Assembly: GCA_022824265.1 (NCBI GenBank)
Contig: JAJEAG010000036.1
Coordinates: 1 to 64,000 of the forward strand
Source of the DNA: Candidatus Poribacteria bacterium
GTDB lineage: Bacteria > Poribacteria > WGA-4E > WGA-3G
Length of the DNA: 64,000 bases
Reading direction: 5' to 3'
Position numbers and translations under genes: made by a program
Part shown: positions 48,968 to 58,940 of the stretch, piece by piece
Numbering within the stretch: position 1 is the first letter of the stretch
How the letters are laid out: each line of letters begins with the position of its first letter
Notes under the pieces: model-generated
Database searches by the model: none
Seen by the model: the letters and a program-made list of their open reading frames with translations, nothing else
What the model was told of the DNA's origin: nothing

Positions 48968-49300
48968 ATGGGAAAAATAGCTGATGCGACATTTGAAGGC
49001 AAATTTGGAACTTATGCGTTTGAAGTTTTTACTACCGAAACGATATTCAATCCAGTAGGTGCAGTATATATTTTCTCAAAACGGATCATAGGTCCGGATG
49101 GAAGGGCAACACACACATTTTTATATATTGGTCAAACTAATTCGCTTAAGGAGAGAATACCAAATCACGAAAAATGGCAGTGTGTTAATAGTTACGGTGT
49201 TAATTGCATCTGTGTGCATCAAGACAATGACGCGAATTCTCGTATGCGTAAAGAAGTTGACCTACGTGCGGTAAACAAAACCCCATGTAATGCTCAATAG
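48968..49300 (+). CDS. Small GIY-YIG domain protein
   Basis: A 110-residue protein. The GIY strand is GAVYIFSKR and the YIG part is TFLYIGQTNSLKERI, with an H-x-x-W end (NHEKW). It forms a minimal GIY-YIG nuclease-like domain without an added DNA-binding part. It may be a homing or repair-type nuclease, or a non-catalytic relative; an equivalent of the usual catalytic glutamate could not be located with confidence. GGGATAG precedes the ATG. Confidence 0.65.
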   Translation: MGKIADATFEGKFGTYAFEVFTTETIFNPVGAVYIFSKRIIGPDGRATHTFLYIGQTNSLKERIPNHEKWQCVNSYGVNCICVHQDNDANSRMRKEVDLRAVNKTPCNAQ

Positions 49301-52208: not shown

Positions 52209-54605
52209 CTACATTCTTAGCTCTGCCCCAAGTTCTTGACTCAATCTTTTTACAACCTTGTCATGTAGATCGTTAACCGCTTTATCTGTCAAGGTTTCAG
52301 TTGCAGAATGATATGTGATTGTGTAGGCGAGGCTTTTCTTACCATCCGACACTTGATCCCCGACATACACGTCAAACAACCGCACCGATTCAACCAAATC
52401 TCCACCAGTGGAATAGATTAGCTCTATTGGTGTATCCGACTGCATGTCTACATCTACAACAATCGCAAGGTCACGCTGAACACTGGGATAAATGGGAATC
52501 GGTTCAAATCGTTTGGAAAAATCAGCTGCGTCTGCAAGTGCTTCAAGGTCAAGTTCAAATAGATATGCTTTATACGGAAGTTCGTAATTTCCAAGCACTT
52601 CAGGATGTGCCTCTCCGAGAATACCGATAAGTGTATTCCCAAACGACACCGCAGCATTGCGACCCGGATGGAAGGTTGGTTCTTCAGTTTTCTGGAATGC
52701 ATAATCCGCAATACAACATACCTCAAGTAACCTCTCCACAATACCCTTGATGTCAAAAAAATCAGGATTTTTATATGGGTTTCCGTAGACACCACCACCT
52801 ATTTCACCAGCGAGAATACCCGCAACACGTCCCGGTTCTTCACCTTGCATAAATACTGAGGACATCTCAAAAAGAGCAATATTATTGATCTGATGATTAT
52901 GGTTATGTTGTGCGTTATCAAGTAAACTTGGGAGTAGTGTTGTTCGAAGGATCGACATCTCTGGACTTAAGGGATTACGCAGTTTCAAAGCATCACGAAG
53001 TGGATTGTCTGCTGCTAAACGGACTTTATCAAAGCAGTTCGGGTGATTGAAACTATAGTTCACCGCTTCCATCATACCAGATCCAAGAAGAAACTGCTTG
53101 ATACGTTTTCGGACTTCAACTGAAATATCTGGAACCGGAACAGGGATATCGCCTTTTGGCAATGTAGTTGGGATGTTATCATATCCATGGACACGCGCGA
53201 TCTCTTCAATCAGATCAATCTCACGGGTAATATCTCCACGGAAAGACGGCACTGTAACCTGATAGCTGCTATCTTCCGATTGTAATGTTTCTATCCCAAA
53301 CCCTAACCGATATAATATTTGCTCTATCTCGGCTGCTTCAAGCGAAGTGCCTAATATGAAATTGACGCGATCAGGACGGAGTTGAATCTGGACAAGTTCA
53401 CTCTTCCCAGGATAAACATCAATAGTCCCTTCACAGACAGTACCTCCTGCTAATTCTACAATGAGTTGTGTTGCACGATCAAGTGCAGGAATAACTGCTT
53501 CTGGATCCGCACCACGTTCAAATCTATATGACGCTTCCGTGTGCATGCCTAACTTTTTGACAGTTGCACGAATGCTTGCAGGTTGAAAATTGGCACTTTC
53601 CAGTAGCACATCGCTGGTTGTGTTAGTGATTTCAGAATCATACCCACCCATAACACCTGCAAGAGCTACAGGTTTATTCGCGTCGGCAATAACTAACATA
53701 TCTGGGGTAAGTTTGCGAGCCTCTTCGTCAAGGGTTGTGATCTGTTCACCTTCTGCTGCACGCCGTACAACTATGCGATTTTCTCCGAGTTTGTGGTAAT
53801 CAAAAGCGTGTAACGGTTGTCCATACTCCATCAAAACGAAGTTCGTAGCATCCACGATATTATTGATAATTCCAATACCAACAGATTCAAGACGTTGTTT
53901 TAACCACGTCGGAGATTCACCGATTTTGACACCACGAATTACACGTGCTGCATAACGGGGACAGAGATCGGGGGCATCAATCGTTACAGAAGTTACCTCT
54001 GTAATATCAGTGTCGTTTTCATGGATGTTGACCTCTGGTAGTTTCAACTCATTACCTGTTTCCGCGCGAATTTCACGAGCAACACCGATCATACTTAGAC
54101 AATCTGGACGGTTCGGTGTTATTTCCAATTCAAAGACCGTATCTTCTAATCCCAACGCTTTGGCAAGTGGTGTGCCAACGGATATTTCTGAGGATAATTC
54201 CATCAGTCCTGATGCATCTTCGGAGATACCCAACTCTTTTTCTGAACAGAGCATTCCGTGCGATTCCTCTCCACGTAATTTAGCTTGTTTTATCGTTATA
54301 CCGCTCGGCAATTCTGCCCCGATTGTGGCAACAGGTGCAAACATCCCTTCACACACATTCGGTGCCCCACACACAATCTGAAGTGCATCCTGTCCACCAA
54401 TATCTACCTGACAAAGCACAAGTTTATCGGCATTCGGATGCGGTCTAATGGAATTCACTTTGCCAACAACCACGCCTTGTAGGGCTGCACCAAGTTCTTT
54501 AACAGATTCAACTTCAATACCCAACATCGTCAACCTATCCGCGAGGTCATGCGCGGAAAAATCAAAATCTATGTAGTTTTTTAGCCAATTTAGTGTTACG
54601 TTCAA
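52209..54605 (-). CDS. pheT: Phenylalanyl-tRNA synthetase beta subunit
   Basis: A 798-residue beta subunit. It begins MNVTLNWLKNYIDFDF, with a tRNA-binding EMAP-like domain (VVGKVNSIRPHPNADKLVL) at 45-150. B3/B4 and B5 domains follow, then the class II-like core and a C-terminal FDX-ACB anticodon-binding region (RRDLAIV-type QRDLAIVVDVD). It pairs with the alpha subunit to charge tRNA(Phe). It is co-transcribed with pheS (45-base gap) and probably regulated by the upstream T-box. Confidence 0.97.
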   Translation of the reverse strand: MNVTLNWLKNYIDFDFSAHDLADRLTMLGIEVESVKELGAALQGVVVGKVNSIRPHPNADKLVLCQVDIGGQDALQIVCGAPNVCEGMFAPVATIGAELPSGITIKQAKLRGEESHGMLCSEKELGISEDASGLMELSSEISVGTPLAKALGLEDTVFELEITPNRPDCLSMIGVAREIRAETGNELKLPEVNIHENDTDITEVTSVTIDAPDLCPRYAARVIRGVKIGESPTWLKQRLESVGIGIINNIVDATNFVLMEYGQPLHAFDYHKLGENRIVVRRAAEGEQITTLDEEARKLTPDMLVIADANKPVALAGVMGGYDSEITNTTSDVLLESANFQPASIRATVKKLGMHTEASYRFERGADPEAVIPALDRATQLIVELAGGTVCEGTIDVYPGKSELVQIQLRPDRVNFILGTSLEAAEIEQILYRLGFGIETLQSEDSSYQVTVPSFRGDITREIDLIEEIARVHGYDNIPTTLPKGDIPVPVPDISVEVRKRIKQFLLGSGMMEAVNYSFNHPNCFDKVRLAADNPLRDALKLRNPLSPEMSILRTTLLPSLLDNAQHNHNHQINNIALFEMSSVFMQGEEPGRVAGILAGEIGGGVYGNPYKNPDFFDIKGIVERLLEVCCIADYAFQKTEEPTFHPGRNAAVSFGNTLIGILGEAHPEVLGNYELPYKAYLFELDLEALADAADFSKRFEPIPIYPSVQRDLAIVVDVDMQSDTPIELIYSTGGDLVESVRLFDVYVGDQVSDGKKSLAYTITYHSATETLTDKAVNDLHDKVVKRLSQELGAELRM

Positions 54606-54650: not shown

Positions 54651-55667
54651 TTAAAACTGCTGCAAGAAACGCAGATCATTCTCATAAAAAGTTCGGATAT
54701 CTGGAATACGGAACTGTAGATTTGCAATCCGCTCTACTCCCATACCGAAGGCGAAACCGGTAACCTCCTCTGGGTCATAGTTGACAGCACGGAACACCTC
54801 CGGATCAACTGCACCAGCCCCCAAGATTTCAATCCAACCAGTATGTCCGCAACTACGACATCCTTTACCCCGACACACAGTGCAAGAAATATCCGCCTCT
54901 GCACTCGGTTCCGTAAACGGGAAGAAATGTGGACGGAAACGCATCTGTGTTTGGTCACCGAACATCTGCCGCGCAAATGACACCAAGACACCCTTCAATT
55001 CACTAAAGGTAACGTGCCTGTCCACAAGTAATCCTTCAACTTGGTGAAACATCGGTGTGTGCGAAACATCGTAATCCACACGATACGCCTTACCGGGAAC
55101 AATAATACGTAATGGCGGCTTCTGATTTTCCATAGCACGAATCTGAACTGGTGATGTGTGCGTGCGTAAGAGGTTTCCATCTGTCAGATAGAAAGTATCA
55201 TGAAGATCACGCGCAGGATGATCGGCAGGTGTATTGAGTGCGTCAAAATTGTAATGCTCCGTCTCTACCTCCGGTCCCGTTACGACTTGAAAACCCATCT
55301 GCGTAAAAATCGCATCAATCCGTTCCAACGTTTGCATCACAGGATGTGCTTTTCCATAAGCAGGTTTTCGTCCCGGTAACGTGATGTCAACGGCTTCTGC
55401 GTTGAGTTGTTGTTCTTGCTGTTGGCTTTCCAGTGCGGTTTTGGTTGCTTCAAACGCTTCAGTTAGCGAAGCACGCACCTCATTGGCAAGTTTTCCTATT
55501 AAGGGACGTTCCTCTTTGGACAGCTGCCCCATTCCCTTCATGACATCAGTCAACTTTCCCCTGCGTCCGAAGTATTCAATTCTAAGCGATTCAAGTACAT
55601 CTGCCGTTTTCACATCTTTCAATGCTTCAAGTGCTGCAGCTTGAATCGCCTCTAATTCTTTTTTCAT
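54651..55667 (-). CDS. pheS: Phenylalanyl-tRNA synthetase alpha subunit
   Basis: A 338-residue catalytic subunit. Motif 2 region FHQVEGLLVDRHVTFSELKG and motif 3 GMGVERIANLQF are clear, and the helical N-terminal coiled coil covers residues 1-90. A small cysteine cluster, CTVCRGKGCRSCG, occurs before GWIEILGAG, as in other bacterial alpha subunits. The start has GGAGAAGG 14 bases upstream. A 14-base sequence at the start (TTCATACAAATTTT on the plus strand, 55664) recurs at 55723. Confidence 0.97.
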   Translation of the reverse strand: MKKELEAIQAAALEALKDVKTADVLESLRIEYFGRRGKLTDVMKGMGQLSKEERPLIGKLANEVRASLTEAFEATKTALESQQQEQQLNAEAVDITLPGRKPAYGKAHPVMQTLERIDAIFTQMGFQVVTGPEVETEHYNFDALNTPADHPARDLHDTFYLTDGNLLRTHTSPVQIRAMENQKPPLRIIVPGKAYRVDYDVSHTPMFHQVEGLLVDRHVTFSELKGVLVSFARQMFGDQTQMRFRPHFFPFTEPSAEADISCTVCRGKGCRSCGHTGWIEILGAGAVDPEVFRAVNYDPEEVTGFAFGMGVERIANLQFRIPDIRTFYENDLRFLQQF

Positions 55668-55883
55668 ACAAATTTTATTCCTTCTCCTTGCATGTATGAT
55701 TATCTTCGAAAAGTGAAACTAATTCATACAAATTTTCATTTCCATGTGATAGTATCTTTGTGATGAACCGTTATGAATTCTAATTCGCAGACATCCATCT
55801 CGCTCATACATGCATACGTTTCTTTCCATTGTTTGTGTTGGATATGCTATGGGTAGTGTTTACTCCAATCTTCCAAAATTAAC

Positions 55884-57242
55884 CTAAACCAGTTCATTTT
55901 CGTTGATTGCTTCCATTTCCGCGGCAATTATAAGTTGGGTTTCTCTAAATTCCTTTGCATCAGGAATACGTACAAACTCTGCATTAACATCTTGCTCTCT
56001 AACGATATCTTCAATCTCATCAAGACTTACATTGAAAAATTCTTTGCGCGTGTTGATTCTATTGACACTCCGCTTTTCAAGAACACGATGTATCTCATTT
56101 TCAAGTTCAGGTGCATTTTCTGAATAGATCATAGCATGAATATCAAATCGAAATGGAACGGAAGCATCCCCAAGTTCTCTTACCCGATCAGTCGGTTCCA
56201 ATCTACGGGTCATTCCAACTTTATAGACATTTTCACCAAAAGACCCAATATTAGATATAACGTAGACATGTCCTGATTTGGTCATCTGTGCCCTTGACAT
56301 TGTGCGTTCCATGTTCGCTTGTGCCTCCAATAATAACTCATTCAGACGTTCAATCTCGTGTTGTAATTTGTCCTGTCTTGCCCCTGTTGCTTCCTCAATC
56401 TCTTGCCGTGCTTTGTCCAACGCTTTCTGGTAACGTTGTTCCTCTTTTTCTACGTCTTGTTTTGCTTTTTCTATTTCACGTAGTGCGCGTTCTTCGTCGC
56501 GTATCTGTTCACGAATTCTGCGTTGTTCTTCCATTTCAATTTGGCGTTTTTCGGCATATTCGTGAACAAGCCTGAGTTCATCAAGTTTCAAATTTAGGTA
56601 GTCCATTTGGATTGTGCAATGGTGAGGTTCTCCAAGTTTGTTAATAGCTTTATAAGCTGACACAATACGTTTTTCTATACTATGAATGTTGTTATAACGC
56701 ACCTTTAGTATTATGGAATCGCATTCACCATTAAATGCACGAGCCATCAATTTAATCTGTCTATCAGTCTTTTGCCTACCTTTCGCCCTGTTACCATCAA
56801 CTGTCCATTCAGTGGGACAAACAATTGCAGTCTTGTCCTTAATCATGGCTTTTTGTTCTACCCGTATTTCATCAAGTTTATTCTTATATTCTACTGACGT
56901 TCCAAAGTCGTATTTTGGTTCGTAAAGTCCAAAAGATTGAATTTCTACAGTGTCTTGAACAACAGTAATCTCATCTTTTAGCGTTTTCAAGGTTTCTTGA
57001 GCATTAGATATTTCTGAATTAAGACCATTTTGTTGTGAATCCAACGAGTCTAAAACTTCTTTAGCTGCTTTTTGTTCTTGGTTGATAGATTCTTGGATTT
57101 TTAACTTTTCTGCCTCCAAATCAATTATGCTGCTAAATCGCTTTAACTCTCGTTTTTGCTTAATTATCAGATTAATGAGATAACCCACAATAACTAAAAA
57201 TAATAAACCAATACATAAAATAATAATAATTTCTAATGACAT
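55884..57242 (-). CDS. DUF4041/GIY-YIG (T5orf172-type) membrane-anchored protein
   Basis: A 452-residue protein. An N-terminal membrane helix at about 4-27 (IIIILCIGLLFLVIVGYLI) is followed by a coiled coil, then a DUF4041-like region (QIKLMARAFNGECDSII, KLGEPHHCTIQMDYLNLKL). A second long coiled coil (RREQ-rich) covers about 230-320. A C-terminal GIY-YIG/Mug113-type domain starts GHVYVISNIGSFGENVYKVGM and continues to EIHRVLEKRSVNR and EFFNVSLDEI. Such proteins are common in phages and defence islands. Here the gene sits between the Phe T-box and pheS, an unusual place, so it might be under T-box control. Confidence 0.82.
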   Translation of the reverse strand: MSLEIIIILCIGLLFLVIVGYLINLIIKQKRELKRFSSIIDLEAEKLKIQESINQEQKAAKEVLDSLDSQQNGLNSEISNAQETLKTLKDEITVVQDTVEIQSFGLYEPKYDFGTSVEYKNKLDEIRVEQKAMIKDKTAIVCPTEWTVDGNRAKGRQKTDRQIKLMARAFNGECDSIILKVRYNNIHSIEKRIVSAYKAINKLGEPHHCTIQMDYLNLKLDELRLVHEYAEKRQIEMEEQRRIREQIRDEERALREIEKAKQDVEKEEQRYQKALDKARQEIEEATGARQDKLQHEIERLNELLLEAQANMERTMSRAQMTKSGHVYVISNIGSFGENVYKVGMTRRLEPTDRVRELGDASVPFRFDIHAMIYSENAPELENEIHRVLEKRSVNRINTRKEFFNVSLDEIEDIVREQDVNAEFVRIPDAKEFRETQLIIAAEMEAINENELV

Positions 57243-57349
57243 AAATTTATCTTATTCCTTATTTGCGATTGATATGACTCCCAATGACAATCTTTTTAGT
57301 TATATCATCAATAGTGTAATAAACCATCCAAATAGTTAATTAAACTCGC

Positions 57350-57600
57350 ACACAAAAAAATATACCTGTCACGTTCCCACCACTGCCTCATGTTATGCTT
57401 GAGGCACTTCTGGGGACGAAAGCGACAGGCATCTACTTCCGCGGTACCACCCCGCTTGACAGATTATCTCAACAATCTGTCCGCTTCATTTCTTGCTTAA
57501 CTGGCTCCAAGATGAAATTCAGCAGTTGTTCTCAAAACCACGCTTTCAGCCGATGGCACGGTCTCTCTGATTGAGATGTCTCAACTACTTACTTTGTCCC
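57350..57600 (-). promoter_or_regulatory. T-box riboswitch (Phe specifier) with terminator
   Basis: Minus-strand leader. The T-box core GGGTGGTACCGCGGAA is at about 57437-57452. Stem I elements AGAGAG and GGCTGAAAG lie upstream. The specifier reads GAATTTC followed by A, giving the Phe codon TTC (complement at 57514-57516). The terminator pairs CCTGTC near 57425-57430 with GACAGG near 57364-57369, around an inner GCCTCA/TGAGGC hairpin, and is followed by TATATTTTTTT (down to about 57353). Uncharged tRNA(Phe) would switch on expression downstream. The first gene it meets is the DUF4041/GIY-YIG gene, then pheST. Confidence 0.88.
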
Positions 57601-57643
57601 TTCATAGCCTTGATTATCATAATGTTTATATTTTGACTATAAC

Positions 57644-57991
57644 CTATCCTTTTGCCATAGTGACAAGTTGTTCAAACCCCGCTGCATCATGCACTGCAAT
57701 GTCTGCCAGAACTTTCCTATCCAATTCAACGCCAGCAGTTTTCAGTCCGTGGATAAATTTACTATATGTCAATCCGTGTAATCTTGCAGCAGCGTTAATA
57801 CGCATGATCCAAAGTCTTCTAAAGTCCCGTTTCCGTGTACGTCTATGTGCGTAGGCGTGGTTCCAAGATTTTTCAACCGCTTCCATCGCGGTACGTCTGA
57901 GGTTATTACGTCCACCACGAAACCCTTTGGAATGCTTCAGTATCCGTTTCCTTCGCTTACGACGGACATTTCCTGTTTTTACCCGTGCCAT
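57644..57991 (-). CDS. rplT: Ribosomal protein L20
   Basis: A 115-residue, highly basic L20: [21 protein letters not shown] at the start, then [37 protein letters not shown], and [11 protein letters not shown]20 binds 23S rRNA early in large-subunit assembly and in many bacteria represses the rpmI-rplT unit by binding its leader. It follows rpmI by 9 bases. Confidence 0.97.
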
Positions 57992-58388: not shown

Positions 58389-58940
58389 TTATGAAGATGA
58401 AGATTTCGGTGTTAAGAGCATGGACATCACACGCGTTTCCATCTTAGCAGGTTGTTCTACTTCACCAAGTTCAGCCACATCTTTTTCCAATCGGGAAAGC
58501 ATATTTTTTCCTAAATCTGTATGCAGCATCTCTCTACCGCGAAAACGCACTGTCGCTCTAACTTTCCAACCATTTTTCAAAAAGTCTTCAACGTGACGCT
58601 TCTTGAATTGGTAATCATGTTCCGCTGTATCTGGTCGGAATTGGATCTCTTTTAAAACAATCTTAGACTGTTTCTTTCGAGCTTCTCTCGCACGCTTATT
58701 CTTTTCATACTGATATTTCCCGTAATTCATTATCTTACATACGGGTGGGTTGGCATTTGGCGAAACCTCAACCAAATCCAAGCCGACTTCTTCAGCACGT
58801 TCCATCGCATCGCGTGGAGACATCACACCGACCTGTTTGTTCTCTTCATCAATAAGGAGAATCTCTTTTGCACGAATTTGATAATTCGAACGAGTCTGTC
58901 TTTCCTTCGGTTTCTGATTACGTCTACCTCTGTAGTGTAT
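58389..58940 (-). CDS. infC: Translation initiation factor IF-3 (non-ATG start)
   Basis: The conserved IF3 sequence is open upstream of the first GTG/ATG: NYQIRAKEILLIDEENKQVG precedes VMSPRDAMERA and must be part of the protein. Reading back, the only possible initiator before a TGA is ATA at 58940-58938. It gives 183 residues, the normal length, with GGGGGTG about 6 bases ahead. No ATG, GTG, TTG or CTG occurs in that stretch. E. coli infC starts with the rare AUU, used for autoregulation, so ATA here fits that logic. The C-domain has IQFRPDTAEHDYQFKKRH. Confidence 0.9.
   Translation of the reverse strand: MHYRGRRNQKPKERQTRSNYQIRAKEILLIDEENKQVGVMSPRDAMERAEEVGLDLVEVSPNANPPVCKIMNYGKYQYEKNKRAREARKKQSKIVLKEIQFRPDTAEHDYQFKKRHVEDFLKNGWKVRATVRFRGREMLHTDLGKNMLSRLEKDVAELGEVEQPAKMETRVMSMLLTPKSSSS

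Follow-up and report, generated by a model that had tools for sequence, protein, structure and literature searches.

Why should a gene for a membrane-anchored nuclease of a phage-defence family lie between a Phe T-box leader and the synthetase genes pheS and pheT, and could this position mean that the nuclease is expressed according to the charging of tRNA-Phe? The locus belongs to a sponge-associated member of the Poribacteria (genome G000, contig C15), and the whole stretch that we analysed, 64,000 nucleotides of this contig, is called the window below. We asked what the interrupting gene encodes, whether the leader in front of it is complete, how and when the gene arrived and which promoter is likely to drive it.

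Results

On the minus strand of the window the order is infC-rpmI-rplT, the Phe T-box, the 452-aa gene, pheS and pheT. The features, with the evidence for each in brackets, are:

52209..54605, minus strand: pheT (Pfam B3_4, tRNA_synthFbeta, FDX-ACB, B5 and tRNA_bind)
54651..55667, minus strand: pheS (Pfam tRNA-synt_2d, 334 bits)
55663..55676, no strand: 14-nt repeat, copy 1, overlapping the pheS start (exact match)
55668..55883, minus strand: 3' spacer of the insert, giving the pheS ribosome-binding site AAGGAGAAGG (sequence comparison)
55723..55736, no strand: 14-nt repeat, copy 2 (exact match)
55884..57242, minus strand: SNIPE/PD-lambda-1 homologue, 452 aa, with Glu381 of catalytic type (Pfam, PADLOC, alignment, hydropathy, AlphaFold2 model)
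57243..57353, minus strand: AT-rich 5' spacer, part of the insert, 27% GC (no promoter-like site above chance)
57354..57360, minus strand: terminator U-tract, 5' edge of the insert (comparison with empty-site relatives)
57361..57432, minus strand: intrinsic terminator hairpin of the T-box (RNAfold MFE)
57409..57614, minus strand: T-box leader RF00230, specifier UUC (Phe) (cmscan; TTC kept in relatives' pheS leaders)
57644..57991, minus strand: rplT (Pfam Ribosomal_L20, 149 bits)
58389..58826, minus strand: infC (Pfam IF3_C and IF3_N), called from an internal GTG; its real start is probably further upstream

The sequence-only reading of this locus had proposed that a DUF4041/GIY-YIG gene with a membrane anchor interrupts the infC-rpmI-rplT-pheST cluster, and both the Pfam domains of the gene and its N-terminal hydrophobic segment bear this out; pheS and pheT, named as the genes downstream of the leader, were likewise confirmed by Pfam. 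The matches of the gene product to DUF4041 (81 bits), MUG113 (67.5) and T5orf172/GIY-YIG (62.9) all exceed the Pfam cut-offs, with DUF4041 (PF13250) at residues 164-219, upstream of the nuclease, and GIY-YIG at residues 324-416. The PADLOC model of PD-Lambda-1, PDLC03976, is matched with 561 bits over nearly its whole length (profile positions 62-479 of 491), and the same models are matched by all 21 homologues that we aligned. PD-λ-1 was first reported in PMC9519451 and has since been renamed SNIPE, an inner-membrane nuclease of E. coli which cuts phage DNA at injection, which requires both DUF4041 and Glu414, and which becomes toxic when stripped of its membrane anchor (PMC13190303). The window protein is about 50% identical, over 87% of its length, to the annotated 500-aa PD-lambda-1 of Escherichia phage PhiR26_1; in the alignment Glu381 stands opposite residue 414 of that protein, the position of the published essential glutamate, and is invariant among the 21 homologues. 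The single N-terminal hydrophobic segment has a hydropathy peak of 3.27 and a predicted transmembrane helix at about residues 5-23. An AlphaFold2 model (mean pLDDT 77, pTM 0.40) places an N-terminal helix at residues 2-37, after which come long coiled coils and, at the C terminus, an alpha/beta nuclease region. Among solved structures none was related to the protein by sequence, and a structure search against viral models returned T5orf172-type matches only. As judged from its sequence, the 452-aa gene is an intact member of the SNIPE/PD-λ-1 family. Elsewhere in the window, at 48968-49300 on the plus strand, a 110-aa ORF beside a histone-deacetylase-like gene matched GIY-YIG weakly (Pfam E 0.011, under the cut-off).

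The leader was said to have all the parts of a T-box with a TTC (Phe) specifier and a terminator, and this description holds: the complete RF00230 model (1-219) is matched with 83.5 bits (E 9.9e-18), TTC is conserved, and a hairpin with a 7-T tract follows. The score lies under the Rfam gathering score of 93, which is a trait of the lineage and not the mark of a broken leader, since the pheS leaders of relatives in the genus score in a similar range, from 53 to 113 bits. When these leaders were compared, the specifier frame was GAA-N-TTC-A, with A as the variable base in genome G010 and TTC unchanged, and TTC matches the Phe synthetase genes downstream. The terminator hairpin overlaps CGTCCC and is followed by the seven T; its MFE is -36.3 kcal/mol, against -38.6 kcal/mol in the nearest relative, G009, in which the site is empty. 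A terminator competing with the antiterminator is thus present in the window leader, with a predicted fold about as strong as that of G009. A second T-box of the same genome lies at G000:C59:7864-8140 (87.3 bits). In two sister genomes, G006 (L024) and G013 (L021), the T-box sensor and antiterminator are absent from the rplT-pheS region and a terminator hairpin alone remains before pheS (-39.1 kcal/mol in G013), so that pheST would stand behind a bare terminator; unlike these two, the related G015 (L027) retains the entire T-box.

Comparison with G009, whose pheS protein is 99% identical, defines the insert. There the terminator stem is followed by GTTATTTTAAAAGGCAATT and the pheS ATG. The window has, instead of these 19 nt, about 1.69 kb (57353 to 55668) that separate the terminator of the T-box from the start codon of pheS and include a U-tract of their own as well as a new ribosome-binding site for pheS. 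In a separate MAG, G011, SNIPE immediately precedes pheS, with a SNIPE-pheS junction of 86-91% DNA identity to the window, and the last ~117 bp of the 3' spacer are common to both (81%). The G011 contig begins inside SNIPE; a search for the T-box side of this locus returned the SNIPE contig as its only match, and the T-box-SNIPE junction is therefore seen in one assembly, that of the window. For the 5' spacer no convincing homologue was found outside G000 among the relatives searched. Could misassembly have put a SNIPE fragment next to pheST in this MAG? That single-assembly junction would fit such an artefact. We regard it as very improbable, because the SNIPE-pheS junction and its spacer recur in the independent G011 and because on either side of the insert the native neighbours resume at precisely the point where relatives have the empty site.

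The placement is uncommon in the phylum. Of 85 genomes, pheS was detected in 84 and SNIPE homologues in eight. The 66 genomes with a T-box on the same contig and strand as pheS have a gap of 41-311 bp between the T-box match and pheS in all cases but one, the window, where it is 1741 bp (median of all, 79 bp). In G008 and the five other SNIPE-bearing genomes of the phylum SNIPE and pheS lie apart, and among 41 SNIPE loci, within the DNA fetched, only that of G011 has pheS or pheT beside SNIPE. No T-box reached the Rfam gathering score at any of 31 SNIPE loci, a strict test which the T-box of the window itself fails; the canonical core [AT]GG[TC]ACCGCG was also not found within 2 kb upstream of SNIPE at the loci having upstream sequence. 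One loose match to the T-box motif lies upstream of SNIPE at locus L072. SNIPE between a Phe T-box and pheST is very probably a real and rare arrangement. The sequence-only reading would have been contradicted by an order common to all relatives, but near relatives occur both with the gene (G011) and without it (G009).

How did the gene arrive? With 37% GC, against 44-47% in pheS, pheT and rplT, and with its sparse distribution in the phylum, SNIPE fits an acquisition from a foreign source. The suggestion that it inserted selfishly finds no echo in the insert, which holds a single gene and shows no transposase, terminal inverted repeats, target-site duplication or pair of repeats flanking its ends, and whose gene evolves under purifying selection. 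The 14-base repeat offered as a mark of the event does exist, in two exact copies, and we considered it as a target-site duplication. It does not mark an insertion boundary, since both copies lie downstream of the gene, on its pheS side, and G011 shares only GTATGAA; the repeat is lineage-specific. Out-of-frame peptides in the 3' spacer had suggested a decayed HNH endonuclease, and this was also rejected: Pfam gave no HNH match, and partial DNA matches in G000:C55 and G011:C269 encode an unrelated protein. The spot after the T-box terminator seems to be permissive, as small repeats of the type CTGTAGGAG...CCTCCTACA or GTAGGAGCGACCTC...GGTCGC have entered just there in several relatives, namely G004 (L015), G003 (L020), G006 (L024) and G007 (L026).

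The insert appears to be old, because its SNIPE-pheS junction recurs in G011 at 86-91% DNA identity. Between G000 and G011 the dS of SNIPE (0.52) is near that of pheS (0.41), so a single old insertion could be the origin of both copies, and a dN/dS of about 0.16 in the same comparison shows, at the level of these sequences, purifying selection on SNIPE. The tree of pheS and the sequence downstream is (G002,(G011,(G000,G009))), with local support of 0.95 for G011 joining the pair. Either G009 lost SNIPE or G000 gained it from a G011-like lineage by recombination; if it was lost, the loss came about by replacement with an empty allele, because the junction of G009 is of the ancestral type. The gene has also moved between lineages of the genus: the SNIPE of G008 (L040 / L119), at an unrelated chromosomal site, is 82% identical to that of the window (dS 0.73), too similar for the distance between the species, whose pheS dS is saturated.

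Discussion

We consider it probable that the locus gained its SNIPE-type gene, for an anti-phage nuclease with a membrane anchor, in the gap that separates the terminator of the T-box from the start codon of pheS, and that this gene is expressed by read-through from the T-box. By analogy with SNIPE of E. coli (PMC13190303), the protein would sit in the inner membrane and cut incoming phage DNA. Its gene would be the first of a SNIPE-pheS-pheT message, transcribed at a basal housekeeping level while tRNA-Phe is charged and more strongly when uncharged tRNA-Phe accumulates. This rise under starvation might have been selected for, or might simply follow from the use of a convenient site that is expressed. 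That the locus amounts to a membrane nuclease under a tRNA-charging riboswitch, a defence protein which rises together with pheST during Phe starvation, is a more tentative proposal, and we would put it at somewhat below an even chance.

Is SNIPE really transcribed from the T-box? Judging by the anatomy of the locus, co-transcription with pheST by T-box read-through is most likely; it is favoured because the terminator looks functional and because the spacers contain neither a promoter better than chance nor a terminator. A scan found no terminator-like site in either spacer, and one weak match of this kind lies inside the SNIPE gene. As pheST is essential, the basal level of read-through has to be enough for the cell to grow, and this would make SNIPE constitutive too. 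The main rival is that the 111-bp 5' spacer contains a promoter from which SNIPE is expressed independently of the T-box; the position of the gene would then be a coincidence, and pheST would be driven in part from the same promoter. Since no T-box could be detected near SNIPE genes elsewhere, these presumably bring a promoter with them, and the spacer, with its 27% GC, contains a weak extended -10-like site, TGATATAAC. However, this site has no -35 match and is no better than shuffled sequence, as the best promoter-like score was reached by 372 of 500 shuffles of the 5' spacer (and by 429 of 500 for the 3' spacer); a scan of the minus strand between 55500 and 58000 with a sigma-70-like consensus, the Poribacteria consensus not being established, found no promoter-like site. 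We think a separate promoter rather unlikely, though it is the strongest competitor of T-box read-through.

If read-through does occur, could the link to Phe starvation be adaptive? Infection or amino-acid depletion would lead to uncharged tRNA-Phe, the T-box would raise SNIPE, and the cell would have a starvation-sensing defence. The sensor, specifier and terminator of the T-box are all retained, and selection has kept SNIPE in two of the clade's lineages. Yet pheST alone would be reason enough to keep the T-box, the placement is a lone and rare one which is missing from the closest relative, and other SNIPE genes were not found beside a T-box. Moreover, SNIPE acts at genome injection (PMC13190303), earlier than a starvation signal from the same infection could build up. 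We consider an adaptive link improbable.

Why might this arrangement matter? Our literature search found no paper on a T-box-controlled anti-phage gene, and if the T-box reading is true, SNIPE would be the first defence gene under such control known to us. In E. coli the work on SNIPE used the promoter of the gene itself; the paper which characterised it mentions neither starvation nor a T-box and makes no link between expression and metabolism (PMC13190303). The placement of SNIPE may tie defence to amino-acid supply, and a copy in an essential amino-acid-sensing operon provides a natural setting in which a coupling of defence to tRNA charging can be tested. It is also a defence gene at a core-genome site, not in a prophage or a defence island, and is present in some close relatives and absent in others.

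Set beside known systems, the window protein has in common with SNIPE/PD-λ-1 (PMC13190303) the N-terminal membrane helix, DUF4041, GIY-YIG, the essential glutamate and an elongated coiled-coil model; its N-terminal region is poorly conserved, as is usual within the family. The difference lies in its location, which is not a prophage but an operon for a core aminoacyl-tRNA synthetase, downstream of a T-box. The leader, like other pheST T-box riboswitches (RF00230), has a complete stem I, the UUC specifier, the T-box GGTGGTACCGCG and a competing terminator, but the gene that follows it directly is one for defence instead of pheS. Lastly, the genes of the infC-rpmI-rplT-pheST cluster are ordered as in G009, the relative with the empty site, whereas here the cluster is split between terminator and pheS by the 1.69-kb insert, with a new ribosome-binding site for pheS. 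The defence family, the switch and the operon are each known; what is new is their combination.
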